Part shown: positions 11,792 to 63,211 of the stretch, one piece after another | How the letters are laid out: every line of letters starts with the position of its first letter | How positions within the stretch are numbered: the stretch's first letter is position 1 | Source: Hymenoscyphus infarciens | Lineage: Eukaryota > Ascomycota > Leotiomycetes > Helotiales > Helotiaceae | Assembly: GCA_001414345.1 (NCBI GenBank) | Contig: LLCB01000053.1 | Coordinates: forward strand, 124,001 to 188,000 | Reading direction: 5' to 3' | DNA length: 64,000 nt | The notes under the pieces: generated by a model | The model's database searches: none | Told to the model about the DNA's origin: nothing | Seen by the model: only the letters and a program-made list of their open reading frames with translations | Translations under genes and position numbers: made by a program

Positions 11792-14700
11792 TTATTCAAG
11801 AACAATCACCTGTCGTGGAGGTGGTTCTGGGCGAGTATGATAAGCCGGAAGGGGTTCTCTGGTTCGTCCATGAACAAGTATTGGAACCTGATCATGATGC
11901 ATATAACGTTCCTGGTCGGTATGGCGCCGTTCGTACATGACCGGACGCTGAGTTGTTTCCTGGTGGTAGCTATAAAGAATTGTGTCAGCAGATCCGAAGG
12001 GAGGGACAACAAACGAATAATCTTACATGGGTCTTTCCACGTAGGACACAGGAGACCTTGCTCGAGCTGGTGGAAGAGTTTGAAATGATCTGGAAACATG
12101 CTCTTCAAAACCACGTGAAGGATTGATATGACTGCCTGGAACTTGACGAGATCTTTCGGGAACAGTACGGACTGGACCGTCAAGTCGAGACTGAGAAAAA
12201 TCATGAATGAGACCTTGGTCTATACCAGAACGACCCGCAACATCATAAGAACGAGAAAGTCTATCAGAGACAGGGAAGCTGGGGGACTGAGGCATCTGGG
12301 GATGAATGCCTTGGTACTCGGGTTCGACTGGTCTATATCCACGATTCTGTTCACCAATCCTCGAGCTATGCTCATCCGCCGTCATGTGCTCAATGGGCTG
12401 GCGATGATATACAGGACGCTGATATACATGTTCACCTCCATGGCTGTAAGACGGCTGAGGAACAGAATTGTAACGAGCAACAGCTCTACCATCCACCTCA
12501 CGTGGGTCATATACCTCTGGTCTTCTAAATTGCTCAGGGGGACGGCCTAGGTAACCTGATTCAGGTGCGTCGTAGATTGGAATCCGTTCTCCAGCCGGGC
12601 TATACAAATAATCTGCGTTGCCAGACAAACCTTGACTAGAGTCAGGATGAATTGAAGAATCTCGAGCAATGAAATTTCTGGTCTGAACAGACGATGATGA
12701 TATTAAATGGGAATCAGCAGACGGAACAGTTGAAGAGGGATAAGCAGAAGACGGATGAGGTCTAAAACGACCGGATTCATCCTCATGAACAACACGCCGA
12801 CGCTTATACTGGGGGGCATCATCATCATCAAGGATGATTACTTGCCGTCGTGGTGACGGTCTTCGAGCTTCCATCACTGGTCGAGGATATGACTCCTGCC
12901 GGTGATCAAAAGATTCATAGGCATTACGCCGTTCATCTGAGCGAACTAAAGGACGAATCGGGTCGTTTGGAACGGTTTCAATGGAAGGCACAAGCATGTC
13001 CTGGAGACCATTTCTCTGCGGAGATCCTCTCACAACTAGTGGTGGTCTTTGGCCGTTTGCTTGCAATGGAGTACCAAAGCGGGGTTGAAGCTCTTGGTTA
13101 ATGCGGTGATCAGTTTGTTGTCTTACGGTTACCTCATTTCTGGGTGGTGCCGGTGTGCCAGCTACTCTACTGTGCTGTCGATGATAATAGAGAGCCTGTG
13201 GGTATTAGTATAATCGCTGCATCCGCGGAAAATAAATCTGATCAGCTGAGATCAGTTCCAACTTACTGGCTGTATTGCCGAATTCGCCTCATAGCTTTGT
13301 TGATTCATGCTGCTATAATCAGGCTGTCTATCAAATGTTTGTGATCCTGAGGGTCTATGTTGAGGTTGAAATGGGTGAGGTGAAAATGGGGCCACTGATC
13401 TAGGGTTGTTGCTAGACATATTCTTAGTTGGTGAGCTGAGGGGTTGAGATGATGTTGGCTGGCTCAGAGGTCCTTGTTGTCTGTGCAAGGCTTGATCCCA
13501 GGCTGCTTGATACCGTGAAAATCCTCGTTGTTTCGCGTTTTCTAAACGGGTTTTTGGTTGCATCCTAGAACGTGTACGGGAAGATATGGCGTGCGCGGAA
13601 TCTTGACCTGCATTGTTCTGTGAGCGTGATGGATTATTGATTCGAGGTGGAGGTTCAGTTAAAAAGACCCCCGTGGGAGGCACAGGAGCTGCCAGAGAAA
13701 TTGGATTTGAATCAGTGATTTCGCCTTCCTCCTCGTCAGTAGTCTCATCATCAGAGCTGTCGCCGCCATCATCTTCCGAGTCGGTAATTATGACCACCTC
13801 ACGAAGAATCTCATCCATTTGGTCACGTCCAGTTTCCTCGTCGCCGCGCCATTTGACGAGAATGTCTAGACAAACAGGCTCAACTAGTTTTCGAGCGTTC
13901 ATCCAGCTTGTTTCCCTAAGCAGTTTATCGTATCTTGTATGGGTGTGTCGAATATGAGCAAGAGCTGCGAGCTGGACACGGCGAGAAAGTGGAAGATCAG
14001 CCTGTAGCCCAACGGTTGGCTCACCATGGAAATCTCGTCCCTGCTATACATTAGTCGCCGTTCGAAGAATATCGACATGAAACTTGCCTTTTTAAACGCA
14101 TGCTCAATGATCATTTGCCTATCGGTGTTTGGGATCCGCGGGAAAAGGTCGCGAAGTGCAAGATCGGCTTGCTTATTTATTTCCTCTTGCGATTCGGGAA
14201 TAGGCTCAACAGTCCCAGGTGCGACTTTCGATCGAGTGAGTACGGTTTCGCCAACAACTTCTCTAGCTTCATCCACAATCATTTCCCGAAAATGATAACC
14301 CGTCCGATGTATTTCCGCTGAAATTTTCGATGCTTCTCCTCGTTTTGGATCCTGGAAATGTAAAGTTAGCTTAAGGCCACCGATGAGCGGGGTAAGGATG
14401 TACATACGGAGACAACAAATATCATGGCTCCTCGTTCTCTAGAAAGTTCTTTGCACGCATTTGTCATGACTGGATCTCCAAATGGGATAAATGCAAACCC
14501 TGGAGGTGGCTTTGGATCGGTGGTGAGCTATGAGAAGTGTTAATGACTATTGTAGGCAAACGACGGTACCCTACCTGTATCTCGAGCTTCTTCTCCTTCT
14601 TCTCTGTATTTTCGGCAAATTCAAAATAAGATTGATACTTTGATTTGACCTTGGGCATATCCAACCTTGCCACAAGGTGTGAAGGGGCAGGTTCAGCCCA

Positions 14701-15524: not shown

Positions 15525-16736
15525 TCAATCTTCGAGAGCATTGATCTGTTTCTTGATAAATTCAAAGACGGAGAAAAATATCGAGTTGACCACGCACGAT
15601 CGTCCCATGGAAACACCCAAACCCCGGTACATGCTCTTGTTCATAAACTGAATCTTGGGAGCTTTCTTCACTGTCTCTCCTCGGCAGACGGTGAGGCAGT
15701 TTCGCTGATATATGCTCTTGGCGGAGTCAATTGGATAGATAAGAGCCCAACTAGCAACGCCACACAGGCCTCCCGCAAATAACACAGCAAGAGGATTTGT
15801 TGGGGACGTATCCTTAGTGTAGGTTGTAAGCAATTGTTTACTGCTTTCATACGTCATGAAATAGATGGCAGTTCCAAGCGTATCCCTCACTGTGAATTGT
15901 TTAGCAGCATTCTTGTTGGAGACAGCCCTTTTGCTTACTGAGGTGTAGATTGAATCCAGAATAAAGACCCGCGATTCCCCGATGCTTCACTATATTTTTT
16001 GCAGTCTGAAATGTGCCCTTGTTCTGATAGCTTGCAGCTACCTCTCTGGTACTACTCGCGGGATCGGTAACGCTCGATTTGTTTCGATGGGCCATGAGGA
16101 CAGAAACCTGTGCACTGATTTTAGTCAATTCAAAGGGACCTATGTCATGATAATTAGCAGCTGTAAGCGTAAATGACTCTCTACAACCTGCGACTTACAG
16201 GCCACAAGAGTGATGAACGATCCAGCCGTAGCTCCCGCAGCACCAAAGCAGGCGATTGTAGACAATGTTGGATATGTTCCCGGCGTGTTCACATGGACTA
16301 GAGGATCGACTCCAAGATTCCGCTTGAACCACGCAGCATATGTATATTTCGATCTCTGGTAAACGGAAAAGCTGATAGTTCGAACCAATGTGACGCTCGC
16401 CATGGGGGCAAGAACCCCTCGAAAGAACCCCCGGAATTTTTCGGTTTGATATGTATGTCGAACGCAATCCATGAAGCTGTTATATTTGTAGGTTTGCATT
16501 CGAGTCTTGACCGAATCTAGTGGAAACTATGAGTTGTTAGTAAGATCGTCCCCTCTGCGAAGCAGCAGAAGCTCAACACTTACAGCACCAAACGTAGAGA
16601 AGATGCTGCTGACCGACGCAGCAACTTCTGTGCGATATCTTTTGACCCATCTCTTCCTCGATCTGGACTCTTCCAGCTGTTCTGCCAGCCTGTCTCTCGA
16701 CATCGATGCACGATAAACTTCGGAATTGGGTGGCAT
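15525..16736 (-). CDS. Mitochondrial carrier family (SLC25) protein
   Basis: Exons 16736-16584, 16526-16199, 16139-15939 and 15889-15525 give 348 aa. All three carrier signatures are present: FPLDSVKTRM, CPFELTKI and YPIDSAKSIY, one per repeat, as expected for a six-helix inner-membrane transporter. Each signature sits at or near a splice junction and reads correctly only after splicing. The N-terminus has about 40 extra charged residues before helix 1. The CPFE in place of the usual PXD in repeat 2 and the C-terminal FEFIKKQI are visible. I cannot assign a substrate from sequence alone. Confidence 0.88.
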
Positions 16737-26496: not shown

Positions 26497-29400
26497 ATGA
26501 CTGACTATAAAGCCACGGATCTTGGGTACGGTCATCCTGGAAAAGCGACCTATGACACGGAGGAAAACCAATGGGGTTTCTCTATAAATCTAGACGAAGG
26601 TGAGATTAAAGTCTAAATAACCTCGGAATAATACTTACATTTTCTAGAACAACATGTCCAACAAATTTCAGCTTTCGAGGAATGTTTGCCTCCATCTCTC
26701 AAACCCTTCCCAACAAGTAATAGCAAACCTTCAGACCTTCCAAAAAGCCATCTGAAAAGATTTGTAAAGGAATGTCCGGAACTTTTCCCGGCAAACGACC
26801 TTTTATCAACCCTCGTGAAATATGAGCCAAAATTGGAGGCTGAAGTTCCAACACACCCTGGGACGCTTCTTGCAACAGGCGATATTTATGTCCGAAAAAG
26901 ACGCTCGAAACTTATTGCGTTGCCTTGCGGGGAAGCGGGCCATATTCTGAGGATCGTTAGAATTCAGACGAGAAGTCGGGGCTGGGGAGGACGACGAGGT
27001 CGACATGGTCCCAGCATCCAACACCAGTATCTCCATTCAACAGACCAGGGTTATTGGATGGGTACTGGAGGTACAATTCGGCAAATATTGTTTTCTGAGG
27101 ATGAAAATCAGTCTACCTCATGGCTCGCAGTACGGCAAGATTCGGTTACCACTATTTTCAGGCCTATTTATGGCGAGTCACAGATGGCTCTTGTCCAAGG
27201 CTCGACTATGAGGGCATTTCGAGCTTCTCCATTGCAGGCCAACCCCATCGTATCTTTGGGTATCAACAAAACCGGATCACGGAGCCATGTCGATGTTTCA
27301 TTTAATCCTTGGTACACTCGACAGTTCATCGTAGTGGATTTATTGGGTAATTGGTCCATTTGGGATGTTGAGAGCCACCTGAGGGGGGTAAGACTTGTAG
27401 CCGGGAGAAGCGGAAATGTTTCTGATGGCCATGAACCGGACCCGCTGTTGAAGCAATCACCATCTGATGAAGATGGATGGCATTGTGCATGCTGGATTTC
27501 CGATCTCGCTACCATTGCTGTTTGTAATCGACAAACTATTGCCATTTTTAATGTCAAAGCTGAGCCCACTCGTCTTCGGAGTATTGACTTGTCGGAATCA
27601 TTCTCAGGGCGCATAGTTGATGTCAAACGGAGTGTCACTGATCAAAGTCATTTATTCGTCTTGACTACCTCCCGGATTTTCTGGATAGAAGTCACTCCAC
27701 CAGGTGAAGGGGACCAAGACCAGACTGGAGCAAGAATCATTCTCTCATATCGACATTTCCGGAACGCAAATAATGAGACCCTTCGACTTGTCCCTTTACA
27801 AGACGAATATGGTATGTAAACTCTCCACTTTATGTAGTATAAAACTGATTGTTTGAAGCCTCGGTTGTAATAAATTCAAACCAAACGCCCCTTCTCGATA
27901 TTTATGCCTTTAAGATTAAGGAAGGAACAAAAGAACCTATCTCATGGCAAAAGTCTTTTGTTCTGTCGACAAATCTCAACTCTCAATCGTTAGACACGCT
28001 ATGTTTTGTGCCGGCAGCATTCGATGCGGGCCATGATGCAAGCCTCGCAAGCGTTGAGGATGCGCTCCGGTTCTTTCAAGTATGGGCACTCACCTCTCAA
28101 CTGGCACTTGCGTCAATCATTTGTGTGGCTCATAGTGCCATTTTGAAGGATTCTAAATTTCCTTCTTTCTGGAAAACCGCACAAATAAACCACCAAAGGT
28201 CAACATTCTATTCAAAGATCAGTTCAGACAAACTTGTCCGCGAGCCATTCATTATCAAGGACCATGAAGACGAAGGCCATCTAGAAATTCTAGATCCTAG
28301 TTCCGTCTCTCAGGATTCTCATGGCGCATCTGCACTGGAGAAGAAAGATGACCCACGATTTAGGATTGATTGGAGATCGATATTTGATCATATCTACCAT
28401 AACGACATAGTATCAAAAGTTTCCTCGCCCATACCTTCACAACGCGAGTCTGGTACTCTTGAACTGCTCCTCAGAACACTGTGGGAGGAATTTCATCGAG
28501 CCAAACAAACTGGGGGAATCACCATGTCGACTCTGTAAGTATGACTGTCCTTTGAGGTTATCAGCACTAACATTTTTATAGCTTTGAATTAGTCGGACAA
28601 ACAACTTTTCCTGAAGAGCTCGATAGGGCCACCAATGCTTTGCACGGATTCATTCAAGAGTTCAAAGAAATCAATGATCCCGAAGATGACTTTAAACTTG
28701 CAGTCTCAAATCTCACTCGCGGCCCTTCGATGGATTCTCTAACGACTGCCAACGGAGAAAGTGATTTGTCAAATTTCTTAGAGATCTATGATAGATTGAC
28801 AGATGGCTGGATGTCCAGTTTGCCTGAGGATGTGTCGAATGCTACACGACTCTCTAAATACAAAACCATCCGTCGGGTAGCCATAGAGCTCTGTCTGAGT
28901 TCAATAGGTGTCTCTCTAACAGCCCAAGATTCCACATCTCTCACCCAACCCGAAAGTCAAGGTGTCGAAGAACAGCGCCTCATATCCCCGGAGATGACTC
29001 CCGAGCCCTCGCAATATGGCAGTCAAAGTTTATCTACAAACCGCAATTTCCGTACACCATCAGTCTATTCTCGCACCACAACAGCAATATCCGAAGCTCC
29101 AGAGGACCCAGCAATCACCCGGCTCCGTAAATACGCCATCTCAATCGACAACCAACCCGACCCTGGAAAATCACGACTTCTCTCCCACTGGGTCGTTGGC
29201 GGTAACCCAGCTGAATACTCTTGGGAAGCAGCTACGAACAATGCTGCTGCTGCTGGAAGTGGAGATGATAACAATCGTAAGAAATGGAGAGAAGATGCTA
29301 GGAGGAAGAGGATGACGGAGAAATCCTTGAGTAGGGAACGGGATAAAGCTGAATCTCAGCCTATTTCCGTGCCAAGGGGTAGTCAGCCGGATGTTGGGCA

Positions 29401-62109: not shown

Positions 62110-62262
62110 TCTTTGATGGTCTAGTGGTCATGATTTCCGCTTGTCAAGATAAGCCCTAGCTAGGGCTTATTAGCGCGGGAGACCGGGGTTCGATTGTAAG
62201 TATAACGCCTCTATAATACAATATATACCGAAAACTAACAGCGCAATAGCCCCGTCAGAGAG
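62110..62262 (+). tRNA. tRNA-Asp (GTC) with an anticodon-loop intron and a second, spliceosomal-type intron in the T-arm
   Basis: The acceptor strand TCTTTGA (62110-62116) pairs with TCAGAGA (62255-62261; one G-U pair), discriminator G at 62262. The D-arm and A-box read TGGTCTAGTGG. The anticodon GTC is at 62143-62145. A 27-nt intron (62147-62173) sits at the canonical 37/38 position and contains a 22-nt palindrome. The T-arm is interrupted after GGGGTTCGATT by 62196-62249 (54 nt), starting GTAAGT, containing AAACTAAC and ending AATAG. Removing both gives CGGGG-TTCGATT-CCCCG, a perfect T-arm, and a 72-nt tRNA. The identity is clear; whether it matures into a working tRNA cannot be told. Confidence 0.88.
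62196..62249 (+). other. 54-nt spliceosomal-type intron inside the tRNA T-arm
   Basis: GTAAGT donor, CTAAC branch site 10 nt before a TAG acceptor, A/T-rich interior. Size and signals equal those of the mRNA introns in neighbouring genes. Confidence 0.75.
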
Positions 62263-62269
62263 AATCTGA

Positions 62270-62280
62270 GGTTCAATTCC
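62270..62280 (+). promoter_or_regulatory. Second Pol III B-box-like sequence downstream of the tRNA
   Basis: GGTTCAATTCC fits the consensus GGTTCRANTCC in full. The tRNA's own B box is cut by the intron and lacks the final CC. Confidence 0.5.
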
Positions 62281-62298: not shown

Positions 62299-62305
62299 TT
62301 TTTTT
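62299..62305 (+). terminator. Probable Pol III terminator (T7)
   Basis: Run of seven T, 37 nt beyond the tRNA end and beyond the second B-box-like site. Confidence 0.6.
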
Positions 62306-63211
62306 GCCATATTTTTGAACTAATTTTGTGGCTGTTTCTGGTCACTGTTATCCTACTGAAATCCCTTGAGAGCAGTGTCTCCACTCCCCTTTCACGGTAG
62401 TGGCCCTCGGAGAAGCGTCATTTAAACTCTAGTACAAGTACCGAGTGCCACGGCTGGCAGCGCCCAGGCCTCTCTCATGGCACTCAGTACATACTAGGCC
62501 TTGTATTTGACTTGGGTGAATGTAAAAGGAAAGTAACATAAAGAGCACTCCGATTTCCTCATCCCTGCTTGCTAGGTAAGTTTTTGCAATACTGTAGTGC
62601 ATTGGTTCCAACTAGCACGCAGTTGTTGCAAATACTGAGATGGAATATTCTTCCAGACGTCTCATAAAAGTTCAAGTGTGCACTCGCAGTATGTTTTACT
62701 AATTCAAACTTGGGAAAAAGTGGTTCTTGAGAATCTGTGAACTGAATTGCACCACTCGTTCTATTTCATAGAATATAGGCCTTCGTGGTTGAATACCAGG
62801 CTTTCTGGGAGCAAAGCCTACGTGCGATTCTTACCTTGCCGAGGCCAATTAAGATATAGCTAAAGACTTCATTTACAAAAATAGAGATCCAACAAGTCTC
62901 TTTCGAAGTCACCTTCATAAATGCACAACTCCGCCCAAGGAATCAATTTTAGTCTTCATATGTTTTTGTCCTATTAACTTATAGAACCATGCTTTTATGT
63001 ACGTTTGCAAATTAGGTATCTCGCCCCTGTCTCTTCTCCTTCCACCCTTCGGTCATCAATCTCAACCACCGAAGTCCATTTTTCAAATTGCTTCGCACTC
63101 ATGTAACCAGACCCCATTTTTTCTCATATTCAACGCCTTCAAAACTCCATGTCACCCATGCTGTACAACAATCCACATCCCACCCACCTTAGGCACCCGG
63201 CTACCTCACCC
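62306..63211. other. Intergenic stretch
   Basis: About 900 bp between the tRNA gene and the ABC transporter stop codon. No gene, repeat or structured element is recognised. Confidence 0.5.

Follow-up and report, generated by a model that had tools for sequence, protein, structure and literature searches.

The window, a 64,000-nt stretch of contig C481 in an assembly of 65.6 Mb and 742 contigs, contains a tRNA-Asp(GTC) gene on the forward strand at 62110 to 62262 that is interrupted twice. Intron style, the size of the genome and a Rix7-like protein indicate that the assembly is probably fungal. Positions 1-37 of the tRNA occupy 62110-62146, with a mismatch at 1 of 37 positions to an intact tRNA-Asp gene of the same genome (L006). 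They are followed by a 27-nt intron (62147-62173) at the standard 37/38 position, the place where L006 has an intron of 25 nt. Positions 38-60, up to TTCGATT, lie at 62174-62195 and contain the native B box (GGTTCGATTgt, 10.5 bits), which is split by the second insert. This insert is an intron of the spliceosomal type, 54 nt long (62196-62249), that interrupts the T loop beyond position 60; it starts with GTAAGT, carries CTAAC, which places the branch A 11 nt before the 3' boundary, and finishes with TAG. The 3' end of the tRNA, CCCCGTCAGAGA, comprises positions 61-72 (62250-62261) and the discriminator G (62262). Once the insert is left out, positions 38-72 show 0 mismatches to L006. The trailer on the same strand holds a second B box, GGTTCAATTCC, at 62270-62280 (12.8 bits), and a run of seven T residues read at 62299-62305, which is likely the Pol III terminator. 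Both interruptions had been described in the initial annotation, 27 nt beside the anticodon and 54 nt in the T arm, and both were read directly here and checked verbatim; the second B box was absent from that annotation.

Neither ARAGORN nor Rfam found a tRNA at 62110-62262 in the raw window. With both inserts removed, the acceptor stem formed 7 of 7 pairs and the T stem 5 of 5, and ARAGORN, run with introns allowed and made-up flanks, recognised tRNA-Asp(gtc) in the spliced sequence and made no call on the unspliced one, as expected from the earlier claim that excision restores a tRNA-Asp. Elsewhere in the window, a 7-bp-like inverted repeat (GGCCTTCG...CGAGGCC) at 62778-62847 resembles a degenerate tRNA by eye; ARAGORN and Rfam gave no tRNA match to this segment.

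The signals of the insert had been described as those of neighbouring protein genes. We scanned the window for stretches of the form GTRAGT..CTAAY..YAG with a length of 45-75 nt and obtained five, including the tRNA insert, as opposed to one in the reversed window. The stretch at 28535-28581 (forward strand) left one terminal stop in the joined sequence and 16 stops in the unjoined one. On the reverse strand, over approximately 300 nt in each case, the joined and unjoined sequences had 0 versus 1 stops for 16527-16583, 0 versus 4 for 16140-16198, and 0 versus 4 for 13196-13266. Each of the four non-tRNA stretches, when removed, left one frame without internal stops. Three to four protein-gene introns in the window thus share the signals of the tRNA insert, in accord with the original description.

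The gene had been presented as a single case. Searches of its own genome recovered at least 13 interrupted tRNA genes on 13 contigs, each verified verbatim, which represent at least five isoacceptors and two insert positions. The insert interrupts the T loop beyond position 60 in five tRNA-Asp genes (in the window and on C336, C570, C41 and C422), two tRNA-Ser(AGA) genes (C158 and C721) and two tRNA-Ser(GCT) genes (C287 and C723). It lies in the T stem, just before G53 and directly upstream of an intact B box, in three tRNA-Gly(GCC) genes (C303, C80 and C16) and one tRNA-Trp(CCA) gene (C730). The usual 37/38 intron is present in the interrupted Asp, Gly and Trp genes and absent from the four Ser genes. 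Position and signals of the insert recur in the five Asp copies, and similar inserts occur in the eight other genes, which upholds the view that the insert is not random decay; a lone decayed gene was rejected as an explanation, since the insert recurs in 13 genes.

A BLAST search with the window locus against its own genome gave nine matches: the five interrupted Asp genes, the intact gene on C202 (L006), two loci with the 5' part only (C113 and C79), and one self-match of the 37/38 intron. An introner, a mobile intron, would be expected in many alike copies in unrelated genes; for the window insert, the one used as a query of its own, BLAST gave tRNA-Asp loci only, apart from the self-match, and a comparison of the tRNA-Asp copies showed it to be common to five and absent from L006. 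A pattern for the Asp 5' half returned the same eight loci as BLAST, two of which (L007 and L008) were without a proper 3' part. The Ser, Gly and Trp members were found by patterns, an Rfam tRNA search and reading of contexts. The Rfam search scored 63 of 3357 first-look candidates and the pooled BLAST search 40 of 72; the census is thus incomplete, and more interrupted or intact genes are likely.

Pattern counts alone were not taken as evidence, and the decision rested on the contexts that were read. Genome pattern search A gave 44 matches versus 75 in the backwards control, with 33 of the 44 contexts read. Search B gave 69 versus 90; eight of its matches belong to the set, and no tRNA turned up in the contexts read for 15 of the remaining 61. 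Search C, the sole pattern above its control (11 versus 5), yielded four tRNAs when all 11 contexts were read. Exact pattern scans of viral and genome contig collections returned no match. ARAGORN without intron handling made a call at only 1 of 26 loci; as it also failed on intact genes that have a 37/38 intron, this run was uninformative.

The 5' splice signal of the 13 inserts is GTAAGT in ten, GTAAGC in two and GTATGT in one; all follow the U2-type signal GTRNGT except the two GTAAGC inserts, which depart from it at the sixth base. All 13 carry a YTAAY motif that puts the branch A 10-11 nt before the 3' boundary, and all finish with YAG. (For L102, the last, overlapping CTAAC was taken as the branch; an earlier TTAAC stands at 14.) Insert length is 49-54 nt in twelve cases and 70 nt in the remaining one. 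The inserts thus resemble the genome's U2-type protein-gene introns, which span approximately 47-71 nt in the four window examples, in GTRAGT, CTAAY and YAG, but they differ in having tRNA hosts, in a branch that sits 10-11 nt before the 3' boundary, and in being free of T4+ runs, the last of these not significantly so (P of 0.08 by shuffling).

Introns removed by the tRNA endonuclease can also lie outside position 37/38, and the inserts could be ectopic introns of this kind, as in Cyanidioschyzon or nucleomorphs. The literature on these organisms indicates that endonuclease-type introns in the T arm exist and that many Guillardia introns are without a clear bulge-helix-bulge (BHB) (PMC9602550, PMC4090602, PMC3978253). 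At the insert junctions in the T arm, where the initial annotation had suggested looking for this structure, the 4-bp central helix of a BHB had 0-3 of its four pairs in all 13 genes, even with equivalent junctions allowed, and the BHB intron was rejected. Moreover, a BHB would not explain GTAAGY/GTATGT, a branch motif at a fixed distance and YAG in 13 of 13 inserts. We regard endonuclease-type introns as extremely unlikely.

We evaluated whether excision at the GT and AG boundaries yields sound tRNAs. With introns allowed, ARAGORN called a tRNA in 13 of 13 genes after excision, as opposed to 1 of 13 unspliced. Five genes (L002, L081, L102, L103 and L105) became a letter-for-letter match of an intact paralogue's mature sequence. 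The remaining interrupted Asp and Gly genes had 1-5 differences from their intact paralogue, and the Ser(GCT) genes had 16 (L078) and 9 (L079); the Trp gene had no known paralogue against which it could be set. A control with shifted cuts covered Asp, Ser(AGA) and Gly. For each of the five Asp genes and the two Ser(AGA) genes, displacing the cut by 1-3 nt gave a poorer match; the Gly genes are unaffected by shifts from -1 to +2 because GGT flanks the site.

The acceptor stem was fully paired (7/7) in 12 of the 13 genes and the T stem (5/5) in all of them, and the amino-acid identity of the anticodon was kept in 12. One Asp copy, L005, is decaying, with the anticodon ATC and an acceptor stem of 6/7. 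The acceptor stems of the Ser genes vary on both strands across the insert while pairing 7/7 (GGCCAGG/CCTGGTC, GGCCATA/TGTGGTC and GGCCAGA/TCTGGTC), although these changes may have originated before the inserts. By hand count, positions 31 and 39 of the Trp gene form an A-C mismatch.

Among the four sound Asp copies, identity was 98% in the exons, 95% in the trailer, 62% in the 37/38 intron, and 37-38% in the flanks. The insert core, defined as the segment from the 5' signal to the branch, was 46% alike in these copies, compared to 32% (standard deviation of 6) for shuffled cores, a control run for Asp only. Identity of exons and insert cores was 98% and 38% in Gly and 88% and 31% in Ser, and the two Ser(AGA) genes share every exon letter but differ in their introns. 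Inserts have therefore drifted while exons and splice signals were kept, which would not be expected of dead genes unless gene conversion keeps the exons alike, and gene conversion could indeed be the cause of exon identity.

These figures bear on the possibility that the genes are interrupted pseudogene lineages, in which an mRNA-type intron hit one gene per family, the dead copies multiplied, and intact paralogues supply the tRNA. The existence of such paralogues for four of the five isoacceptors, the decay of L005, and the weakness of the native B boxes in Asp and Ser are in line with this scenario. It is at odds with the excess of exon over core identity in Asp and Gly, with the retention of splice signals in 13 of 13 genes, with the nearly uniform pairing of acceptor and T stems, and with the five genes that match an intact paralogue after excision. 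No intact Trp gene was found in the incomplete census, which also speaks against it. Overall, we consider pseudogene lineages unlikely.

Intact genes were identified for Asp (L006), Ser(GCT) (L062), Ser(AGA) (L132) and Gly(GCC) (L088-L090). The idea that splicing is forced by a lack of intact genes failed for these four isoacceptors, and because of their intact paralogues, rivals of the pseudogene kind are weakened but retain some probability. For Trp, a BLAST search with the exon-joined form found just the 5' part of the same gene, and a pattern for the standard anticodon loop gave five matches versus eight in the control, all five of which were read and contained no tRNA. Since the tRNA census is incomplete, the absence of an intact Trp gene is a lead rather than proof. 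A more far-reaching proposal, that the spliceosome acts as a tRNA-maturation enzyme for several isoacceptors, that translation itself would depend on mRNA-type splicing of a Pol III transcript since the one Trp gene found has such an intron, and that the downstream B box of the Asp family is a relocated one that evolved to sustain Pol III transcription, is tentative, with chances that we would put a little short of even.

All 13 genes are followed by a T4+ run that starts 9-41 nt after their final exon base, and such runs occur inside 0 of 13 gene bodies, an absence that for the inserts alone was not significant. We built a B-box matrix from 43 intact genes, which score 12.0-18.2 bits. The T-loop inserts split the B box, leaving 10.5 bits in Asp and 10.4 bits in Ser, whereas the B box is intact in the interrupted Gly and Trp genes. 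In all five Asp copies, the second B box, GGTTCAATTCC, lies 8 nt past the acceptor end, and its score of 12.8 bits is at the low end of the intact range. It probably stands in for the split B box in TFIIIC binding. As the second B box resembles the 3' part of the gene itself, it may have come from a tandem duplication. In the Ser genes, no convincing replacement B box was found; the sequence GTTCAATCC in L078, picked out by eye, scored just 5.1 bits.

If the loci were instead Pol II units, producing tRNA-like or long RNAs that are spliced in the manner of mRNA and give no tRNA by the usual route, the splice signals would be accounted for without a Pol III transcript reaching the spliceosome, and the native B box is indeed split in the T-loop class. 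Such units would not be expected to have a T4+ run just past the gene in every case, a second B box kept in Asp, an intact B box in Gly and Trp, or an anticodon that retains its amino-acid identity in 12 of 13 genes. We judge this explanation very unlikely.

The best explanation, to which we assign a probability of roughly 0.82, is that the 13 loci are functional nuclear tRNA genes of the Pol III type whose T arms have gained spliceosomal introns of the U2 type. The spliceosomal reading of the insert, put forward initially for one gene, is supported at the sequence level by 13 genes with the signals, by conserved exons as opposed to drifted cores, by the lack of a BHB and by acceptor stems whose two halves, one on each side of the insert, both vary. 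The Pol III transcript may carry two kinds of intron, one at 37/38 and a GT-AG intron in the T arm. The spliceosome would remove the GT-AG intron and thereby rebuild the T arm, and the tRNA endonuclease would remove the 37/38 intron. Since tRNA-processing enzymes need the T arm, splicing of the T arm would come first, followed by end processing and 37/38 splicing.

The two splicing systems are taught as separate, with the spliceosome serving mRNA (and some U6 genes) and the endonuclease-ligase pathway serving tRNA, and the spliceosome is not known to finish tRNAs. The closest parallel is the U6 snRNA gene of fission yeast, which contains an mRNA-type intron (Tani and Ohshima 1989, 1991, cited in PMC10484740). 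In the citing paper, that intron is attributed to a likely reverse-splicing event close to the catalytic bases of U6, itself a part of the spliceosome (PMC10484740). As in the tRNA set, a spliceosomal-type intron is found in a Pol III gene whose transcript must reach the spliceosome; the tRNA set differs in that tRNA genes of five isoacceptors are affected and the interruption is in the T arm. The U6 gene of the present genome matched end to end without a gap, as judged by match coordinates. At G000:C85:16097-16411, two U6 matches (92 and 45 bits) lie in opposite orientation approximately 110 bases apart.

Papers on tRNAs of Cyanidioschyzon merolae and of nucleomorphs describe another parallel, an extra T-arm intron besides the one at 37/38, which can split the B box and whose removal is ascribed to the tRNA endonuclease (PMC9602550, PMC4090602, PMC3978253). 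The C. merolae introns are removed by way of a BHB, whereas the inserts of the tRNA set are without a BHB and have spliceosomal signals. In a 2026 review of unusual splicing, tRNA splicing is classed as spliceosome-independent (PMC13149111). None of the matches listed in searches of the open-licence PMC literature, searches that in part used very narrow terms, reported a tRNA gene with a spliceosomal intron.

Our comparisons thus point to tRNA genes as a further class of Pol III gene with putative spliceosomal introns. If this is true, Pol III precursors can routinely reach the spliceosome, and the genes offer a natural system in which to examine how an RNA is committed to one splicing route or the other. 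They would also provide fresh, datable cases of intron gain. Finally, common tRNA finders would overlook real tRNA genes, because ARAGORN, even with introns allowed, called only one of the 13 in the unspliced state.

Several other tRNA-like loci, none of them counted among the 13, were encountered during the searches. L110 (C108:85851-85907 and upstream sequence) is a tRNA-Arg(TCT) with approximately 49 nt in the D loop, bounded by GC..AG at best. L108 (C720), which is Arg(ACG)-like, has an insert before the B box with GTAAAT..CTAAT..AAG, and after excision one G too many remains and the acceptor stem pairs poorly. A type II tRNA, L101 (C224:5724-5884), carries GTAAGT..CTAAT in the anticodon region. 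L095 (C145:40351-40526, reverse strand) is tRNA-like with a long intron and, by hand count, the anticodon UCA, which would read UGA; ARAGORN, run without intron handling, made no call there. Solitary tRNA halves were also seen. The L007 region (C113:41750-44795) contains a solo Asp 5' half at C113:43258-43294 on the forward strand, which ends at position 37, and a solo Ala 5' half at C113:42996-43033 on the reverse strand, which ends at position 38, with a third, Ser-like match nearby of just 20 nt (E value of 0.6). A solo Ser(AGA) 3' half that has no T-loop insert, L133 (C721:584827-584856), lies approximately 450 bases downstream of the interrupted Ser(AGA) gene.
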